64,000 nt of DNA. Origin: an uncultured Anaerolineae bacterium. GTDB taxonomy: Bacteria > Chloroflexota > Anaerolineae > Aggregatilineales > Phototrophicaceae. Positions 37,918-50,035 of this stretch are shown here, piece after piece. The position numbers and the translations under genes were made by a program. The notes under the pieces were generated by a model, which saw only the letters and a list, made by a program, of their open reading frames with translations, was not told where the DNA came from and searched no databases. Where the stretch lies: NCBI GenBank assembly GCA_937944445.1, contig CALDYP010000046.1, forward strand, positions 1-64,000, given 5' to 3'. Numbering within the stretch: position 1 is the first letter of the stretch; every line of letters begins with the position of its first letter.

Positions 37918-39236
37918 GACGCGCCCCCTTCAGCCACGTTGGCCCCAAGCTGCATCATCGTCTGTGGGAAGCCGGGGAAGCTGTCCCCCGCGCAGCGAAT
38001 TTCATGCACAATCGTTTCCCCCTGCGCCACCAGCCCTGCGACGGTCATGCTCATTGCAATGCGGTGGTCATCGTGGCCTTGCACTTCAGCGCTGTGCAGA
38101 CGCTGCGGCCCCACCACGCGGAACCCGTCCTCACGTTCCTCGACGACCGCGCCCATCTTGCGCAGCTCGCCCGCCATCACAGCAATTCGATCCGTCTCTT
38201 TGACGCGCAGCTCTTTCGCGTCGCGCACCAGCGTTTCGCCCTCGGCGTGCAGCGCCGCCACCATGAACACCGGGAACTCATCAATCATGCGCACGACGAC
38301 GTCCCCGCCGACCTCGACACCCCGCAGGGCGCTCGTCTGCGCGCGGATCGTGCCTACCGGTTCGCCCGCTTCTAGCCCTGTCTCGTGGATTTCGAGCCGC
38401 GCCCCCATCGCTTGCAGAACGTCAAGAATGCCGGTGCGCGTCGGGTTCAAGTTGACATTCGTCAGCGTGATGTCGCTGTCTGGAACGAGACACGCGGCCA
38501 CGATCAAGAAAGCTGCCGATGAAATGTCGCCCGGCACAGTCATATCCATCGGTCGCAGTTGGCCGTTAGCCGTCACGCGGATCACGTTCCCCTCAGTTTG
38601 GATGTCCGCCCCCATGCTGACGAGCATCCGCTCTGTGTGGTCACGCGCTGGGCCGGGTTCAACGATCTCGGTCACGCCCTCCGCGTACAGCCCAGCCAGC
38701 AGAATCGCACTCTTTACCTGCGCTGAGGCCATCGGCAGCTCATAGCGCACGCCGCGCAGCTTGCTCGGGCGGATCGTCAGCGGGGCGCGGTCGTTGACGG
38801 CCTCAATGTCTGCGCCCATCAGCCGCAGCGGTTCGATAATGCGGCGCATCGGGCGGCGACGAAGCTGCTCGCTGCCGTCTAGGACGCTGGGAAAGGGCTG
38901 CCCAGCCAAGACGCCAGCCGCCAGCCGAATGCCCGTGCCCGCGTTGACGAAGTTCAGCGGCGCGGTGGGCTGGCGCATCGTGCCCCCGTGCACAGTCAGC
39001 GTGTGCTCATCGTGCCGCTCTACAAATACACCCAGCGCTTGCACCGATGCCAGCGTTGCCTCGGTGTCGCCAGCAGCCAACCACCCTCGCACGTGGCTCA
39101 CGCCGTCAGCCATCGCGCCCATCAACACCGCCCGATGCGACAGAGATTTATCCCCCGGAACGCTGCTCGTCCCGCGCAGCGGGTTGCCGGGCCGCACCCG
39201 CAGCAGATCCATTGTGGCCATTTCGCTTTTGCTCAT
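37914..39236 (-). CDS. aroA: 5-enolpyruvylshikimate-3-phosphate synthase
   Basis: This 440-residue EPSP synthase joins shikimate-3-phosphate and PEP. Motifs are GDKSLSHRAVLM, NAGTGIRLAAGVLAG, RRRPMRRIIEPL, and DEFPVFMVAA plus KELRVKETDRIA in the second domain. The RPM-R pattern resembles the class-II (Bacillus/CP4-like) branch, an inference from motif alone. The 5' end lies 89 bases inside tyrA in another frame, an unusually long overlap. The ATG has a weak GGAACG upstream; in-frame ATGs at 39221 and 39212 are alternatives but still overlap. Confidence 0.95.
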   Translation of the reverse strand: MSKSEMATMDLLRVRPGNPLRGTSSVPGDKSLSHRAVLMGAMADGVSHVRGWLAAGDTEATLASVQALGVFVERHDEHTLTVHGGTMRQPTAPLNFVNAGTGIRLAAGVLAGQPFPSVLDGSEQLRRRPMRRIIEPLRLMGADIEAVNDRAPLTIRPSKLRGVRYELPMASAQVKSAILLAGLYAEGVTEIVEPGPARDHTERMLVSMGADIQTEGNVIRVTANGQLRPMDMTVPGDISSAAFLIVAACLVPDSDITLTNVNLNPTRTGILDVLQAMGARLEIHETGLEAGEPVGTIRAQTSALRGVEVGGDVVVRMIDEFPVFMVAALHAEGETLVRDAKELRVKETDRIAVMAGELRKMGAVVEEREDGFRVVGPQRLHSAEVQGHDDHRIAMSMTVAGLVAQGETIVHEIRCAGDSFPGFPQTMMQLGANVAEGGAS

Positions 39237-40107
39237 ATCGTTCCATCCACTCCAATCGTGCTTGACGCACCGGGAAAAGCATCTTCGTTAGCTCTTCGTA
39301 TTCGCCGCTGATGAGCAGCGCTTCCATCAACGCTAGCTGCACGCGAAACTGCGCGAGCAACGTCGCCACCGCCCGGCTGTTGCTGCTGATGATATCGCTC
39401 ATCATCTTGATGTCGCTGGCGGCCAAGCGCGACGTATCTCGAAAGCCTCCTGCGGCAAGCTGCCAATAGGCTTCATCTTTACGGGCTTCATTGGCAATCG
39501 TCGCCACCAAAGACGCGCTCAAAATATACGGCAGATGACTGATTCCTGCCACGATCTTATCATGACGGTCGGGGTCTAGCTCGATTGGTTCCGCGCCCAA
39601 CGCCTCCACGAACGTTATCGCACGGATGCGCGTGGCCGGCGTGGTGCGCCGCGTGGCGCACAGCACGAACGGACGCCCCTCATACAGCGCGGCATCGGCT
39701 GCCTCAATGCCGCTGACTTCCTTGCCAGTCATCGGGTGGCCGCCAATAGCCTGAACGCCGATGGGCAAGCGCCCCATCGCCTCGCAGATGTCGTGCTTCG
39801 TGCTGCCGATGTCGATCAGCAAGGTGTTCGAACGCAAATACGAGCCGATCTGCATCCTCAAGATGTAGGCGATCACCTGCACTGGCGCACACAGCACCAC
39901 CGTTTCCGCGTCCATCACCCCCATGCGCAGATCGTCGGTCACGTGGTCACAGATGCCCTGCTCGATGGCGTAACGCCGCGTCTGGGGCGATGGATCGACG
40001 CCGGTAATGCGCTCAGCACGCGGTCGCAGGGCCATCGCTAGCGAAGCGCCCATCAGCCCCAAACCAACTACAGCCAAATGCCTAGTACGAAACCCCGTTG
40101 TCGTCAT
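39148..40107 (-). CDS. tyrA: Prephenate dehydrogenase
   Basis: This 319-residue NAD(P)-dependent enzyme of tyrosine synthesis has an N-terminal Rossmann motif VVGLGLMGASLAMAL. Also present are the conserved DIGSTKHDICEAM, GGHPMTGKEVSGIEAA with the catalytic His, and the HDKIVAGISHLPYILSASL helix. The C-terminal 25 residues (after about 290) are Gly/Ala/Arg-rich and seem unstructured, and lie in the overlap with aroA. No ACT domain is visible, so feedback may be absent and transcriptional attenuation more important. Starts seven bases after aroH. Confidence 0.95.
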   Translation of the reverse strand: MTTTGFRTRHLAVVGLGLMGASLAMALRPRAERITGVDPSPQTRRYAIEQGICDHVTDDLRMGVMDAETVVLCAPVQVIAYILRMQIGSYLRSNTLLIDIGSTKHDICEAMGRLPIGVQAIGGHPMTGKEVSGIEAADAALYEGRPFVLCATRRTTPATRIRAITFVEALGAEPIELDPDRHDKIVAGISHLPYILSASLVATIANEARKDEAYWQLAAGGFRDTSRLAASDIKMMSDIISSNSRAVATLLAQFRVQLALMEALLISGEYEELTKMLFPVRQARLEWMERYEQKRNGHNGSAAGAARQPAARDEQRSGG

Positions 40108-40114
40108 CGTTCGC

Positions 40115-40486
40115 TCACTTCTTGCGTGGTGTAGACAACTCCGGACGAAGTGATACCGCGCCTTTCAGATAGACATGCTCCAGCTCGTGCTGCTGCTTCG
40201 TCGTGTTCCAATGGACGAGCACGCGAATGCAAAGTTTGACGCCGTCGGGCACGTCCATTTCCTGAAAGCCCATCAGCGCCACTTGATGCCACCCCATATC
40301 GCGCGCCGCTTTCGCTGGGAACGCCGCGTTCAAGTCCGGCGTCGTGGTGAACAGCACGCTGGCCACATCCTCAGGTTGAATGCCGTTTAATCGGACGATT
40401 TCTCGCAGCACTTCAGTCGTCGCCGCGTGGATCGCCTCCGCGGTGTTGGCATCCGCCGTAATCGCGCCGCGAACCCCCCTCACCAT
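40115..40486 (-). CDS. aroH: Chorismate mutase, AroH type
   Basis: This trimeric AroH-type mutase of 123 residues converts chorismate to prephenate. MVRGVRGAITADANTAEAI aligns with the Bacillus AroH N-terminus. The start is taken at ATG 40486, eight bases after GAGG; ATG 40492 and GTG 40510 are in frame but poorly spaced. LCIRVLVHWNT carries the active-site Cys-Ile-Arg segment. It is the first gene after the Tyr-leader attenuator, so it and tyrA are the prime targets of that control. Confidence 0.95.
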   Translation of the reverse strand: MVRGVRGAITADANTAEAIHAATTEVLREIVRLNGIQPEDVASVLFTTTPDLNAAFPAKAARDMGWHQVALMGFQEMDVPDGVKLCIRVLVHWNTTKQQHELEHVYLKGAVSLRPELSTPRKK

Positions 40487-40510
40487 TAACATGCCCTCTG
40501 CCCTTTCCAC

Positions 40511-40540
40511 AAAAAAAGCGCGATGATGAACGTCTCGCGC
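40511..40540 (-). terminator. Rho-independent terminator of the aroH leader (attenuator)
   Basis: The minus strand reads GCGCGA, an 11-base loop, TCGCGC, then seven Ts, with a further A-T closing pair. It ends 24 bases before the aroH start and after the leader-peptide stop, the right place for an attenuator. Confidence 0.85.
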
Positions 40541-40592
40541 TGATTAGTCTATGGGGCTGTCTTTAGCCAAACAAACGCTAGCGACTCATCAT

Positions 40593-40649
40593 CTATCGGA
40601 TTATGTCGTAAGCGTAGTAATAAAATTGGCGGACAGCGTGCATCACCAT
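40593..40649 (-). CDS. Leader peptide rich in Tyr (MVMHAVRQFYYYAYDIIR)
   Basis: An 18-codon frame ends in TAG at 40593-40595. Codons 9-14 are Phe-Tyr-Tyr-Tyr-Ala-Tyr (TTT TAT TAC TAC GCT TAC), far beyond chance for a random 18-mer. The stop lies 52 bases before the terminator stem. An AAGG 11 bases before the ATG is a modest ribosome site; an in-frame ATG at 40643 is an alternative start. It should act only as a sensor of charged tRNA-Tyr (and perhaps tRNA-Phe) for aroH-tyrA and the downstream shikimate genes. Confidence 0.8.
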   Translation of the reverse strand: MVMHAVRQFYYYAYDIIR

Positions 40650-40678
40650 GTCAGAAGTTGCCTTGTCTACAATAGTAG

Positions 40679-40707
40679 AGAGTAGCGATGAACTAGGCAC
40701 TTGTCAA
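40679..40707 (-). promoter_or_regulatory. Promoter of the aroH leader
   Basis: The minus strand has a perfect TTGACA (40702-40707), a 17-base spacer and TACTCT (40679-40684). It lies between trpA and the leader peptide, so the chorismate/Tyr genes can be transcribed independently of trp. Confidence 0.6.
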
Positions 40708-40731: not shown

Positions 40732-41559
40732 TCAACAGCGATCATCGTCTTTTTGCGCCAGACCAGACACCAGCGCGCGCGTCAGCGCCTTAACCGCCGC
40801 CACGCCCTCTTGCCCAGCCCGCACTAACGCGCTGCCCACGATGAACCCATCTACCAATGACTTGATCTGCTTGACGTGTTCCGGTTTGCTGATGCCGAAG
40901 CCCAGCACCAACCGCTTGTCCGTCCGCGCGCGGATGCGCCCCAGCGTGTCGGTCAAATCAGGCGGCAGCTCAGCGCGCGCGCCGGTGATCCCCGTCAGCG
41001 CGACCACGTAGATGAAGCCCGTCGCGCGGCTGGCCACAAGGTCGATGCGGCGGTCATCGCTAGTCGGCGCGAGCATGAACACCTGCGCTAGCCCAGCCGC
41101 TTCACACGCCGCGCTGAAGTAGTGCGCTTCCTCAGCCGGCAGGTCAGGGACGATGAGGCCATCCGCGCCGGCCGCACGCGCATCTTGCACGAAGCGTTCC
41201 GCTCCGTAGGCGAGCAGCGGGTTGGCGTAGCCCATCATCATCATCGGCTGTGCGACGCCCCGCGCCCGCAGCGTCGCCACCGCGTCCAAGCATTTGCGCA
41301 CCGTCACCCCATTGTCAAGCGCGATCTGCGTCGCCATCTGAATCGCTGGGCCATCCGCGATGGGGTCGCTGAACGGGATGCCGATCTCAAACCCATCCAC
41401 CCCCTCAGCGGCCATCGCCTCAAGCGCGTCGATGCTCTCGTCATAGGTTGGGTAGCCAATCGGGAAGTAAGGCAAGAACGCCGCGCGATTTTGGGCGCGC
41501 GCCGCGTTGAACATCGCATCCAGTGCGGCAAGGCCTTGCTGCGTGCGTGTGAGTGTCAT
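40732..41559 (-). CDS. trpA: Tryptophan synthase alpha chain
   Basis: This 275-residue TIM-barrel subunit cleaves indole-3-glycerol phosphate. Catalytic Glu lies in GVDGFEIGIPFSDPIADGP with the conserved Asp in the same loop. MMMGYANPLLAYG, GLIVPDLPAEEA and LGFGISKPEHV bind substrate phosphate. Start is ATG 41559 with GAGGG about nine bases upstream. Upstream is the DUF429-like gene rather than trpB directly. Confidence 0.96.
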   Translation of the reverse strand: MTLTRTQQGLAALDAMFNAARAQNRAAFLPYFPIGYPTYDESIDALEAMAAEGVDGFEIGIPFSDPIADGPAIQMATQIALDNGVTVRKCLDAVATLRARGVAQPMMMMGYANPLLAYGAERFVQDARAAGADGLIVPDLPAEEAHYFSAACEAAGLAQVFMLAPTSDDRRIDLVASRATGFIYVVALTGITGARAELPPDLTDTLGRIRARTDKRLVLGFGISKPEHVKQIKSLVDGFIVGSALVRAGQEGVAAVKALTRALVSGLAQKDDDRC

Positions 41560-41570
41560 AAGTCGATCCC

Positions 41571-42347
41571 TCAAACTCGAACGATAATGCCTTCAACGTG
41601 TGCCACGGCCCACTCCGCTTGAGTCGCAAACAGCGGGCTGGTCGTCCAATTGTCATAAATGTGATACAGGTGCTGAGCCGCTGCCGTCGTAACGCACGCT
41701 GCGACGCTGTCGGCTATATCTTGACTGCGCACGGTTTGCAGCGCCGCGGGCAGCACCACCTCAATCACGCCCAGCGCGTTGAACGCCTTGACAAACGCGC
41801 CCACGTCAGTTGAGCGCGCCAGCCTGACGCGCGCCCACGTGTGCGATGGGTACACCTCGCACACCTGCTTATCCGTCGGCATGTCCAGCGGGTACGCGGC
41901 TACTCCCTTCTGATGCAGATACCACAGCAGTTTTGACCCCGCATACACCATCGCCACCAGCGACGGGTTGACCCGCTTCAAGCCGCTGTAAGCGCCTGAG
42001 GCGGCGTCTGTCTCGCGGCAGTAGAGCGAGGCCGCGCTGCACTTCCCTTCACAGCGCCCCACGCGCTCCGCCAGCAGTTCGGCAAACTCCGCCCGTGAGC
42101 AGTTCAAGCTCAACTCGTGCAGCCCCGCCACGCCTAGGTACTGCATCGCCTGCTGCGGCAGTCGGAACGGGAAGTCCAACCCACACAGCAGCGGCGCATC
42201 ATTCAGGGCGATCTCAGCGTACAGGTCAAGGCGGTCATCGCACGCGCGCAGCGTGTCGATTGTCAGCACGCCGTCGATCAAACTGCCGCCGACCACTGCA
42301 ATTTCTGGCGATTTTCCGCCGCTGAAGTCCGCCCCCAGAATGCGCAT
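41571..42347 (-). CDS. DUF429-like protein between trpB and trpA
   Basis: From ATG 42347, whose first base overlaps the trpB stop, the 258-residue product fits the DUF429 pattern of a predicted RNase H-fold nuclease. It has [13 protein letters not shown] at the N-terminus, CGLDFPFRLP in the middle, VCEVYPSHTWA, and SQDIADSVAACVTTAAA at the C-terminus. The acidic residues expected for metal binding (D in GADFS, D in GLDF, E in EVYP, D in DIADS) are present. The substrate is unknown. Splitting trpB from trpA is unusual because their products form one enzyme. Confidence 0.72.
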   Translation of the reverse strand: MRILGADFSGGKSPEIAVVGGSLIDGVLTIDTLRACDDRLDLYAEIALNDAPLLCGLDFPFRLPQQAMQYLGVAGLHELSLNCSRAEFAELLAERVGRCEGKCSAASLYCRETDAASGAYSGLKRVNPSLVAMVYAGSKLLWYLHQKGVAAYPLDMPTDKQVCEVYPSHTWARVRLARSTDVGAFVKAFNALGVIEVVLPAALQTVRSQDIADSVAACVTTAAAQHLYHIYDNWTTSPLFATQAEWAVAHVEGIIVRV

Positions 42348-43552
42348 CAGTTCCCCAGCAGCTTCATCACCGTGTCGAGGTCTTTGTCGCCGCGCCCGCT
42401 CAAGTTGACCAAGATGATGCTGTCTTTGGGCATAGTCGGCGCGCGTTTGATGACCTCCGCGATGGCGTGGCTGCTCTCCAACGCGGGGATGATGCCCTCG
42501 TTCTCGCACAGGACTTTGAACCCCTGCATCGCCTCGTCATCGGTGGCGCTGGTGTAAAACGCGCGCTCTAGCGACCGCAGGTAAGCGTGCTCTGGCCCAA
42601 CGCTCGGATAGTCCAGCCCGGCGCTGACGCTGTGCGTCTCGCGCACTTGGCCGTCTTCTGTTTGCATCACAAACGAGCGCGTGCCGTGCAGGATGCCGGG
42701 CCGCGCCACATCGGGGTTAGCGAAGCGCGCCGCGTGCTTCTCCGTGTGGATGCCCAAACCGCCCGCCTCCACCCCGATCAGTTCAACGTCTGGATCGTCG
42801 CGGAAGGCGTGGAACAGCCCAATCGCGTTGCTGCCGCCGCCCACGCAAGCGATGCACACATCCGGAAGCTGTCCAGTCGCATCAAGGATTTGCTGCTTGG
42901 CCTCTATGCCGATGACGCTCTGAAAGTCACGGACGATGCGCGGATAGGGATGCGGCCCCAGCGCTGACCCCAACAGGTAGAAGGTGCTGCGAACGTTCGT
43001 CACCCAATCGCGCATCGCCTCGTTGATAGCGTCCTTGAGCGTGCGGCTGCCGCTCTCCACCGGGATCACCTCCGCGCCCATCAGCTTCATGCGGAACACA
43101 TTGGGCTGCTGGCGGGCGATGTCCACGCTGCCCATGTACACATGGCACTCTAGGCCCAACAGCGCCGACGCGGTCGCGCTGGCCACGCCGTGCTGCCCTG
43201 CGCCCGTCTCAGCGATGACGCGATGCTTGCCCATGCGCTTAGCCAGCAGCGCCTGCCCCAGCGCGTTGTTGATCTTGTGCGCGCCAGTGTGCGCCAAGTC
43301 CTCGCGTTTGAGGTAAATTCGCGCGCCGCCCAGCATCTCGGTGAGGCGCTTGGCGTAGGTCAGCGGCGTGGGCCGCCCGACGTAGGTGCGCTGCAAGTGG
43401 CTCAGCTCTGTGTGGAAGCGCGCATCTTGCATCGCCTCTTGATAGGCCGCCTCCAGCTCGTCCAGCGCAGGGATGATCGTCTCAGGGACGAAGCGCCCGC
43501 CAAACTCACCGTAGTAGCCGCGTGCATCTGGAACGTTCGTTACAACACTCAT
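42347..43552 (-). CDS. trpB: Tryptophan synthase beta chain
   Basis: This 401-residue PLP enzyme starts at ATG 43552 (AGAGGG upstream, four-base overlap with trpF). [16 protein letters not shown] leads. The PLP Lys is in [37 protein letters not shown] and the phosphate-binding [15 protein letters not shown] follow. It joins serine and indole. This is the TrpB1 type that partners TrpA. Confidence 0.97.
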
Positions 43553-46084: not shown

Positions 46085-46948
46085 CTAGATGGAAACTTGT
46101 TTGTTCTTCAACAGCAGTTGGCGCAGCTCCTCCACGCTGAGCGGCGGCGTGCGCGTGTGAGCCATCCGATGACAGTTCGCACACAACAAATGCAAGTCCT
46201 CAACGCGCGTTTGCTGCTCCCCTGTGAAACTTGCCAGCTGCACCCCGTGATGCGCCTCAATGTAGGCGACCCCGTAAGCCTCTAAAAAGCTAAACCCACA
46301 CACCTCACACGATAGCTGTGGATCGCGCTGCTGATGCCGCAGCTTCGCCTCGCGGATCAGGGCGCGATTGCGCTGGCGTTCTTGCAGCGTTCGCAGCACC
46401 AGCCTGCCCTCGGTGTAGGCGCGGTCGTCCTCTGTCAGCTCGAGGTAGTCCTGCACAAAATCCTGCGCAGCGATGACCTCGTCTTGATACGCCGCCCACA
46501 GGTCGTTCAAGAGCTGCGCGCTCTCCGGGTGCAAAGCCCGCAGCGCGCGCCACCGCTGCACACCCAAATCCTCAGACGATCCCTCATCCATATGGGCAAT
46601 CTCGCTGGCGCGCCCCGTGATGTCGATCAACCGCAGCGGTTCCACATCCCGCCGATCAGAGATGGCATACCACGGGGCGTCACGCCACGGCTTGTCAGAG
46701 TTGACTAAATCGGACGCGGTGAGCGCATCCTGTGTAACTACAGCTACCTTCACCCGTCCCAGCAGGTAGAGCCGCCCACGGTGGATGTTCAGCAGCCACA
46801 GCACATCGCCGGGCTTGACACGCTCCAGATGCCGCCCAGCTGCGTAGTGCGCGTCTAGCACAGCGTTGAGGTCACGGCGCTCTTCATCTGTCAGCCGTTG
46901 GTACAGCGTGTAGTGCACCGCCTCAAAATAGGCCGGACGCCGCGCCAT
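46085..46948 (-). CDS. HNH endonuclease inside the trp operon
   Basis: This 287-residue protein ends in an HNH/McrA-type nuclease domain: CEVCGFSF, then the HH pair in IEAHHGVQL, then LHLLCANCHRMAH. That gives two CxxC zinc pairs and the catalytic His. The N-terminal 120 residues (VKPGDVLWLLNIHRGRLYLLGRVKVAVV) have a PUA/EVE/ASCH-like beta pattern of the kind that reads modified bases in some restriction enzymes, though I cannot confirm it. The middle is helical. It sits four bases after trpG and ten before trpD, so it must be co-transcribed with trp genes. No methylase is present. Confidence 0.82.
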   Translation of the reverse strand: MARRPAYFEAVHYTLYQRLTDEERRDLNAVLDAHYAAGRHLERVKPGDVLWLLNIHRGRLYLLGRVKVAVVTQDALTASDLVNSDKPWRDAPWYAISDRRDVEPLRLIDITGRASEIAHMDEGSSEDLGVQRWRALRALHPESAQLLNDLWAAYQDEVIAAQDFVQDYLELTEDDRAYTEGRLVLRTLQERQRNRALIREAKLRHQQRDPQLSCEVCGFSFLEAYGVAYIEAHHGVQLASFTGEQQTRVEDLHLLCANCHRMAHTRTPPLSVEELRQLLLKNKQVSI

Positions 46949-49750: not shown

Positions 49751-49782
49751 AAAAAACTTCTCTCCAACACAAGGACGAGAAG
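49751..49782 (-). terminator. T-box-controlled terminator
   Basis: CTTCTC-G-TCC pairs with GGA-GAGAAG (one bulged G), loop TTGTGTT, followed by TTTTTT. It overlaps no coding sequence and stands 27 bases before the trpE start. Confidence 0.85.
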
Positions 49783-50010
49783 CAGTTTCCCGCGGTGCCA
49801 CCTTGTTTGGGCAGTTGATGCCCCACTCTGTGGGTACGAGCGGTTGACGCTGATACCCTGCGCCTTGATGACGGAGCGCTTGCCGTCGTAAGCTACTGTT
49901 CGTTCACCTACGCAACTCCCCAGCCCATTCACCTACCCTATGGCATCTTCCCCTCTCAGCATATTGGGGAATTCTCTGTCTGCTAGCAGCAGGTTACTCT
50001 TCTGGATCAC
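49751..50010 (-). promoter_or_regulatory. T-box leader, Trp specifier (UGG)
   Basis: The minus-strand leader of trpE has a full T-box layout. The Stem I base pairs CCAG (50002-50005) with CTGG. The S-turn AGTA faces GTGAA, and the specifier codon TGG follows directly at 49925-49927. The T-box proper, AGGTGGCACCGCGG, lies at 49790-49803. Its bulge TGGC complements tRNA 3' GCCA, and bacterial tRNA-Trp has discriminator G. A terminator (49757-49782, CTTCTC/GAGAAG with inner pairs, then six Ts at 49751-49756) follows. Uncharged tRNA-Trp should bind and favour read-through into the trp genes. Confidence 0.9.
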
Positions 50011-50035
50011 AGTCTTTGTGTATTCAATTGCGATT

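Follow-up and report, generated by a model that had tools for sequence, protein, structure and literature searches.

The trpA-aroH gap of the window (the whole 64,000-nucleotide stretch of DNA analyzed in this study, from an uncultured Anaerolineae bacterium) raises the question of how the chorismate mutase and prephenate dehydrogenase genes behind it are regulated. A first-pass annotation of the same DNA had described in this gap a promoter (TTGACA-17-TACTCT), an 18-codon mini-gene with Phe-Tyr-Tyr-Tyr-Ala-Tyr at codons 9-14, a terminator and an exact 8-base complement (40586-40593 with 40522-40529), followed by the two genes within a supraoperon, and had read them as a Tyr attenuator of this genome. 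We found these parts in place, with the terminator at 40541-40511. The attenuator reading is supported by our analysis, but the element also occurs in other genomes, as a member of a predicted phylum-wide family, for which the signal is best described as Tyr plus Phe. The element in the window is very probably a ribosome-mediated transcription attenuator responding to Tyr (clade-wide, Tyr plus Phe) and controlling aroH-tyrA and the genes behind them; translation, stalling, transcript ends, amino acid response and effect on read-through are predicted parts of this reading. The features concerned are as follows.

40732..41574, minus strand: trpA, the final trp gene before the putative attenuator (PF00290, TIGR00262)
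40702..40707, minus strand: -35 box TTGACA of the promoter within the trpA-aroH gap
40679..40684, minus strand: -10 box TACTCT (TATGCT in most relatives)
40593..40649, minus strand: leader peptide mini-ORF MVMHAVRQFYYYAYDIIR, 18 codons, ATG at 40649 to TAG at 40593 (a Y/F-rich mini-ORF lies at the equivalent place in relatives)
40608..40625, minus strand: control codons Phe-Tyr-Tyr-Tyr-Ala-Tyr (TTT TAT TAC TAC GCT TAC), codons 9-14 (Y/F run conserved)
40556..40637, minus strand: predicted 1:2 (protector) hairpin, GCTGTC...GACAGC with inner stems (leader MFE; own-partner pairing across loci)
40574..40593, minus strand: segment 2, predicted 5' strand of the antiterminator, core GATGATGA at 40593-40586 (duplex, complement and folding tests; own versus permuted terminator)
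40522..40541, minus strand: segment 3, predicted 3' strand of the antiterminator (from the 5' arm of the terminator through the loop into the 3' arm), core TCATCATC at 40529-40522 (duplex, complement and folding tests)
40511..40541, minus strand: intrinsic terminator AGCGCGA-GACGTTCATCA-TCGCGCT, 7-bp stem, 11-nt loop, then T7 (sequence and folding; homologues covary)
40115..40510, minus strand: aroH, type I (AroH-type) chorismate mutase, ORF from GTG 40510, likelier start ATG 40492 (PF07736, E 3e-46; TIGR01796, E 4e-42)
39148..40107, minus strand: tyrA, prephenate dehydrogenase (PF02153 and PF20463)
49768..50019, minus strand: T-box leader of trpE, opening the trp section of the supraoperon (Rfam RF00230, 105.6 bits against a gathering score of 93)

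Leader region and its genomic context

The genes after tyrA are aroA, aroE, aroC, aroK and aroB-like ORFs, named by eye from their translations. With trpA upstream, aroH-tyrA and these aro ORFs downstream and a T-box heading the trp genes, the putative attenuator is therefore an internal checkpoint inside a trp-aro supraoperon. The supraoperon would thus carry a tRNA-binding switch at its head and a predicted ribosome-stalling switch mid-way. Two ORFs with no NCBIfam match (41571-42509 and 46085-46948, minus strand) are inserted between the trp genes, and the latter has HNH endonuclease-like residues by eye.

The promoter of the window has a 17-nt spacer between its -35 and -10 boxes, and the mini-ORF is preceded by a weak Shine-Dalgarno sequence (AAGG, 11 nt 5' of the ATG). 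The terminator has a stability of -11.0 kcal/mol. The usable antiterminator is longer than the exact 8-base complement of the two cores, pairing about 40593-40574 with 40541-40522 at -21.6 kcal/mol as a duplex. The promoter and terminator of the leader were not listed by a generic promoter/terminator scan because it requires a TATAAT-like hexamer with 9/12 matches and a loop of at most 8 nt.

Among 200 dinucleotide shuffles of the window leader, two gave an equally good Y/F-dense mini-ORF. The 8-nt complement by itself was modest (p = 0.037), the whole leader had a folding z of -2.7 against shuffles, and its predicted ribosome-dependent switch was equalled by 14 of 500 shuffles. These single-locus statistics are suggestive, not overwhelming, and the doubt about the window element is removed because its relatives conserve it.

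Conservation of the leader in the family and order

Of 61 genomes from the GTDB family and order of the window, 52 yielded an AroH, and the upstream region was read in every one of these. A Tyr/Phe-rich mini-ORF precedes aroH in 49 of these loci, so that the conservation of Tyr codons named in the first-pass annotation as a check on its reading is borne out, and a G+C-rich terminator was detected in nearly all of the 49. The three loci that lack a leader (L006, L019 and L030) have aroH directly after trpA. Examples of leader peptides in relatives are NDYFYFYFYSDIEASRALP, FNYYYYFYFSN, YFGYWFSYFTGE and FYFYYYFGN, and a named Anaerolineae record (L056) has a similar AroH and leader. Queried with the AroH protein, the named genomes yielded just two loci. 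Leaders with Y/F runs are also present where the gene upstream of aroH is not trpA.

Among the 48 scored leaders, 42 were better than at least 198 of 200 shuffles, and 45 had a promoter-like site near the mini-ORF (TTGACA-like, N16-18, TAnnnT, mostly TATGCT). The mean Y/F score was 5.2 before aroH versus 2.1 before the aspartate kinases of the same genomes (p = 3e-7). Tyr codons across the leaders are TAT (91) and TAC (84), with variable third bases; this near equality indicates that the Tyr residue is kept, not the nucleotide letters.

Amino acids sensed by the leader

Clade-wide, the 10-codon core holds 3.3 Tyr and 2.6 Phe on average; none of the scored leaders is without Tyr, and one is without Phe. 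The window leader contains four Tyr and one Phe, and the run of the congener leader MTKHTFKTYYYCGKHALRTGGLLWFGH has three consecutive Tyr; tyrA comes directly after aroH in both. Most relatives have DAHP synthase (aroF), tyrA or pheA after aroH, usually aroF and then tyrA or pheA. From these mixed codons and the aroF, tyrA or pheA genes that follow aroH in most relatives, the signal is best stated as Tyr and Phe clade-wide, with Tyr probably dominant in the window and the congener.

An attenuator that responds chiefly to phenylalanine, with the Tyr codons secondary, is unlikely. Across the clade, Phe codons fall only slightly short of Tyr codons in number, pheA follows aroH in some families, and AroR of Corynebacterium glutamicum (Phe-Tyr-Phe) responds to Phe, not Tyr, as far as the description in PMC11802643 goes. 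Against this reading, every scored leader has Tyr and one does without Phe, and Tyr prevails in the leaders of the window and its congener, where tyrA is the gene after aroH.

The order and number of Y/F codons also bear on whether the ribosome would stall on uncharged tRNA at the Tyr/Phe codons or be arrested by the nascent chain, as with TnaC. In the window's own family, a conserved stretch with HI/DI residues follows the Y/F run, as an arrest peptide might require. However, the runs vary freely in order and number (YYYY, FYFYFY, YFGYWFSYF), the rest of the peptide differs from family to family, and conserved nascent-chain residues at a fixed stall distance were not found in the leader peptides compared. 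Additionally, the CATA motif conserved behind the run lies in one reading frame at 21 loci and in another at 7, and is therefore conserved as RNA. Stalling set by the nascent chain is thus improbable, and codon-dependent stalling at Tyr and Phe remains the preferred reading.

Alternative helices and predicted switching

Covariation is seen in the homologous terminator, where both bases have changed in 9 of the 12 pairs of the alignment, a level reached by none of 500 shuffles. In most loci, the 5' segment of the antiterminator lies about 14-25 nt beyond the final Y/F codon, and in most of the family it is GGGCGTTGCC; its partner is the terminator, from the 5' arm through the loop to the 3' arm. 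Among loci, the antiterminator changes wholesale yet stays complementary, as in GGTGTAGA/TCTACACC, CAGATGT/ACATCTG, GAGCTTG/CAAGCTC, GAGGCGTTGA/TCAACGCCTC and GGGCGTTATC/GATAACGCCC, besides the GATGATGA/TCATCATC pair of the window.

Helices were compared as per-locus duplexes with permuted partners. Segment 2 paired with its own terminator at -19.7 kcal/mol versus -17.3 +/- 0.4 kcal/mol for permuted partners, a result also obtained within the window's own family alone, and segment 1 paired with its own segment 2 (the 1:2 hairpin) at -28.5 versus -24.4 +/- 0.5; the p values (2e-4 each) are not fully corrected for relatedness between families. The covarying stems that the first-pass annotation had also put forward as a check were thus present among the relatives, as mutually exclusive ones. 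Counts of antiterminator pairs in the fixed MAFFT register were no better than shuffles because the register shifts by one base between loci, which masks them, and the longest perfect complements taken locus by locus reached p < 0.05 alone in only 12 of 48.

Switching was modeled by equilibrium folding with a ribosome footprint ending 11 nt beyond the A-site codon. For the window leader, the probability of the terminator was 0.17, 0.01, 0.01 and 0.01 with the A-site on Tyr codons 10, 11, 12 and 14, 1.00 with the ribosome at the stop codon, and 0.87 without a ribosome. The direction of switching was the same across 48 leaders (p = 6e-11). Only 17 of the 48 switch by more than 0.2 at thermodynamic equilibrium; in this model, the other leaders would need co-transcriptional kinetics.

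The leader has the parts of classical attenuators. It has a short ORF, predicted to be translated, with clustered codons for the end products of the pathway (F-YYY-A-Y in the window; Y/F runs conserved), and an intrinsic terminator between this ORF and the first structural gene. The spacing and folding in the window and the own-partner pairing across loci indicate an exclusive antiterminator, whose 5' strand would be masked by a ribosome at the stop codon and free with a ribosome at the control codons. Leader MFE, matched pairing and the terminator probability without a ribosome indicate that the 1:2 hairpin sequesters the antiterminator strand when no ribosome is present. By gene content, the element precedes genes for biosynthesis of the sensed amino acids (aroH and tyrA, with aroF and pheA in relatives). 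By all sequence criteria, it is a real attenuator, and the predicted family is new, old and widespread within the phylum.

In the proposed mechanism, the promoter in the trpA-aroH gap would start a short leader RNA, and the mini-ORF would be translated by a ribosome trailing RNA polymerase. Under a shortage of charged tRNA-Tyr (and, across the clade, of charged tRNA-Phe), this ribosome would stall on the Tyr/Phe run and leave segment 2 (GATGATGA...) free to pair with segment 3 (TCATCATC...), so that the terminator could not form and aroH-tyrA and the genes behind them would be transcribed. With plentiful charged tRNA, a ribosome reaching the stop codon would cover segment 2 and the terminator would form; in the case of no translation, the 1:2 hairpin would hold segment 2 and termination would win too. 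Read-through transcripts from the T-box-controlled trp operon would pass the same aroH checkpoint.

A plain operon boundary, with a trp terminator, a constitutive aroH promoter and a chance Tyr-rich ORF, would account for the presence of both promoter and terminator, and the ORF and the 8-base complement individually reach only p of about 0.01-0.04. Nevertheless, such a boundary is highly improbable, given that the terminator lies downstream of the promoter, i.e., between the promoter and aroH, and that Y/F runs occur in 49/52 loci and in other classes, also without trpA upstream.

Comparison with known regulatory systems

Tyrosine genes are usually regarded as being under the control of TyrR or T-boxes, and tyrA of Escherichia coli is controlled by TyrR. 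The leader of the E. coli thrL attenuator covers a pair of end products from the same pathway (Thr and Ile), as the leaders described here would read Tyr plus Phe, although its amino acids and genes are different. The enterobacterial pheA/pheL and trp/trpL systems share with the aroH leader a control-codon leader peptide, 1:2, 2:3 and 3:4 hairpins and a terminator before biosynthetic genes, but they use Phe or Trp codons only and belong to Proteobacteria.

In the open literature, we found no report of ribosome-mediated attenuation in Chloroflexi or Chloroflexus, and an earlier mention in subscription papers is possible. T-boxes at trpE were reported for Chloroflexi in 2008 (PMC2494555). A survey of Actinobacteria described tyrosine genes as T-box controlled elsewhere and no RNA elements for Phe or Tyr in Actinobacteria (PMC1262725), and Lopatovskaya et al. 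(2010) is cited in PMC4833913 as a wide comparative survey. The DAHP synthase genes of E. coli are under TyrR and TrpR (PMC11802643).

The closest precedent for a Tyr/Phe leader is aroR-aroF of C. glutamicum (Neshat et al. 2014), for which we rely on the description in PMC11802643. As far as that account extends, it resembles the aroH leader in having a leader peptide with Phe and Tyr codons and transcription attenuation of an aromatic pathway gene, and it controls DAHP synthase, the gene that comes after aroH in most relatives here. Compared by description, it differs in its occurrence in Actinobacteria, its Phe-Tyr-Phe codons only, its response to Phe and not to Tyr, and its position before aroF, not aroH.

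T-box leaders (RF00230), found at Tyr genes elsewhere and at trpE here, likewise sense tRNA charging and control a terminator, but they bind tRNA directly and do not need translation. A T-box of this kind, or a different riboswitch that binds tRNA or a metabolite and senses Tyr directly, is the least probable explanation of the aroH leader, since, for all that T-boxes are known in the phylum (PMC2494555) and one stands at trpE in the window, the leader is short, its conserved part is the ORF, and no Rfam 15 family, the T-box model included, matches it in the window at gathering thresholds or matches nine homologous loci up to E = 1.

Distribution across the class and phylum

A covariance model of the leader gave matches in 75 of 298 genomes of the class, and 17 of 18 matches in a phylum sample adjoin aroH. 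Twenty matches outside the order or at second sites were opened, and most precede aroH. The others include leaders before a stand-alone DAHP synthase (L057 and L067), a LysE-type gene ahead of aroH-aroF (L062 and L071) and an aspartate kinase (L058). In one genome (L059, G192:C16), a Tyr/Phe leader MIQSNSAPTFAFLFFGYFYFYADASTRGRIVTH and a terminator lie before an NMT1/SsuA-like ABC substrate-binding protein, which may belong to an aromatic amino acid uptake system. A clear leader in another class is MVGSRFYTYFFYFTSRKPDWSLRISWR, in a genome that we take to be Chloroflexus aurantiacus; another leader-bearing genome is presumably Herpetosiphon aurantiacus. On these sequence matches, the predicted leader family spans at least two classes of the phylum, which is probably Chloroflexota. 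Other families with aroH immediately behind trpA (f75, f102, f107 and others) have no leader there; tight placement of aroH in the trp operon seems to go with loss of the attenuator, or with its never having been acquired.

The window leader and that of the congener were left out of the building of an independent covariance model. With this model, the window leader ranked first in the 64 kb (E = 0.0075), and whole-genome searches gave 1e-4 for the congener, 2e-5 for the Chloroflexus-like, 6e-7 for the Herpetosiphon-like and 2e-4 for the Roseiflexus-like genome. The window's own copy fell below significance in the genome-wide search, which marks it as a divergent member of the predicted family. 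Its antiterminator block is unlike the GGGCGTTGCC of the clade, and its distance from stop codon to terminator is 51 nt, against 18-46 nt in nearly all others.

By eye, no such leader was seen at the window aspartokinase gene lysC (31061). The DAHP synthase gene of the same genome (L078, G000:C55:199-927), which lies apart from aroH, is also without a leader, and its N-terminal sequence, read by eye, suggests a fusion to an AroQ-type chorismate mutase domain.

Thr/Met leaders and the CATA motif

A leader rich in Thr and Met codons, MLSHSMTTMTMTTTTMAHLRAHGRFRLV, lies with a terminator before an aspartate kinase gene of the window's own genome (L131, G000:C26, kinase at 92506-93903, minus strand). 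Analogous Thr/Met mini-ORFs precede other aspartate kinases (L129, L130, L132, L134-L138 and L145). A Thr/Met score of at least 7 of 10 was found in 9 of 17 aspartate kinase leaders and in none of the aroH regions. These leaders look like a second family of putative attenuators in the same clade.

It is an evenly balanced possibility that the phylum runs a translation-coupled attenuation network, in which leader peptides combine codons for several of a pathway's end products, namely Tyr with Phe ahead of chorismate mutase or DAHP synthase and Thr with Met ahead of aspartate kinase. If so, one leader would integrate two amino acids beside a Trp T-box in the same supraoperon. The predicted Tyr/Phe attenuator itself is the rule across a deep phylum for which the literature searched showed only T-boxes. 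This suggests that transcription-translation coupling serves to control amino acid genes in the phylum. In addition, the leader could serve as a ready RNA family for Rfam, and the control is predicted in genomes matching cultured species.

The CATA motif, just past the predicted stall codons, may be an added, undescribed RNA part. It is present just behind the Y/F run of 28 of the 48 aroH leaders, compared with 25 of 471 background windows. Examples of CATA(G) are found in L007, L020, L044 and L045, and in the window as CGACATAA at about 40608-40601.
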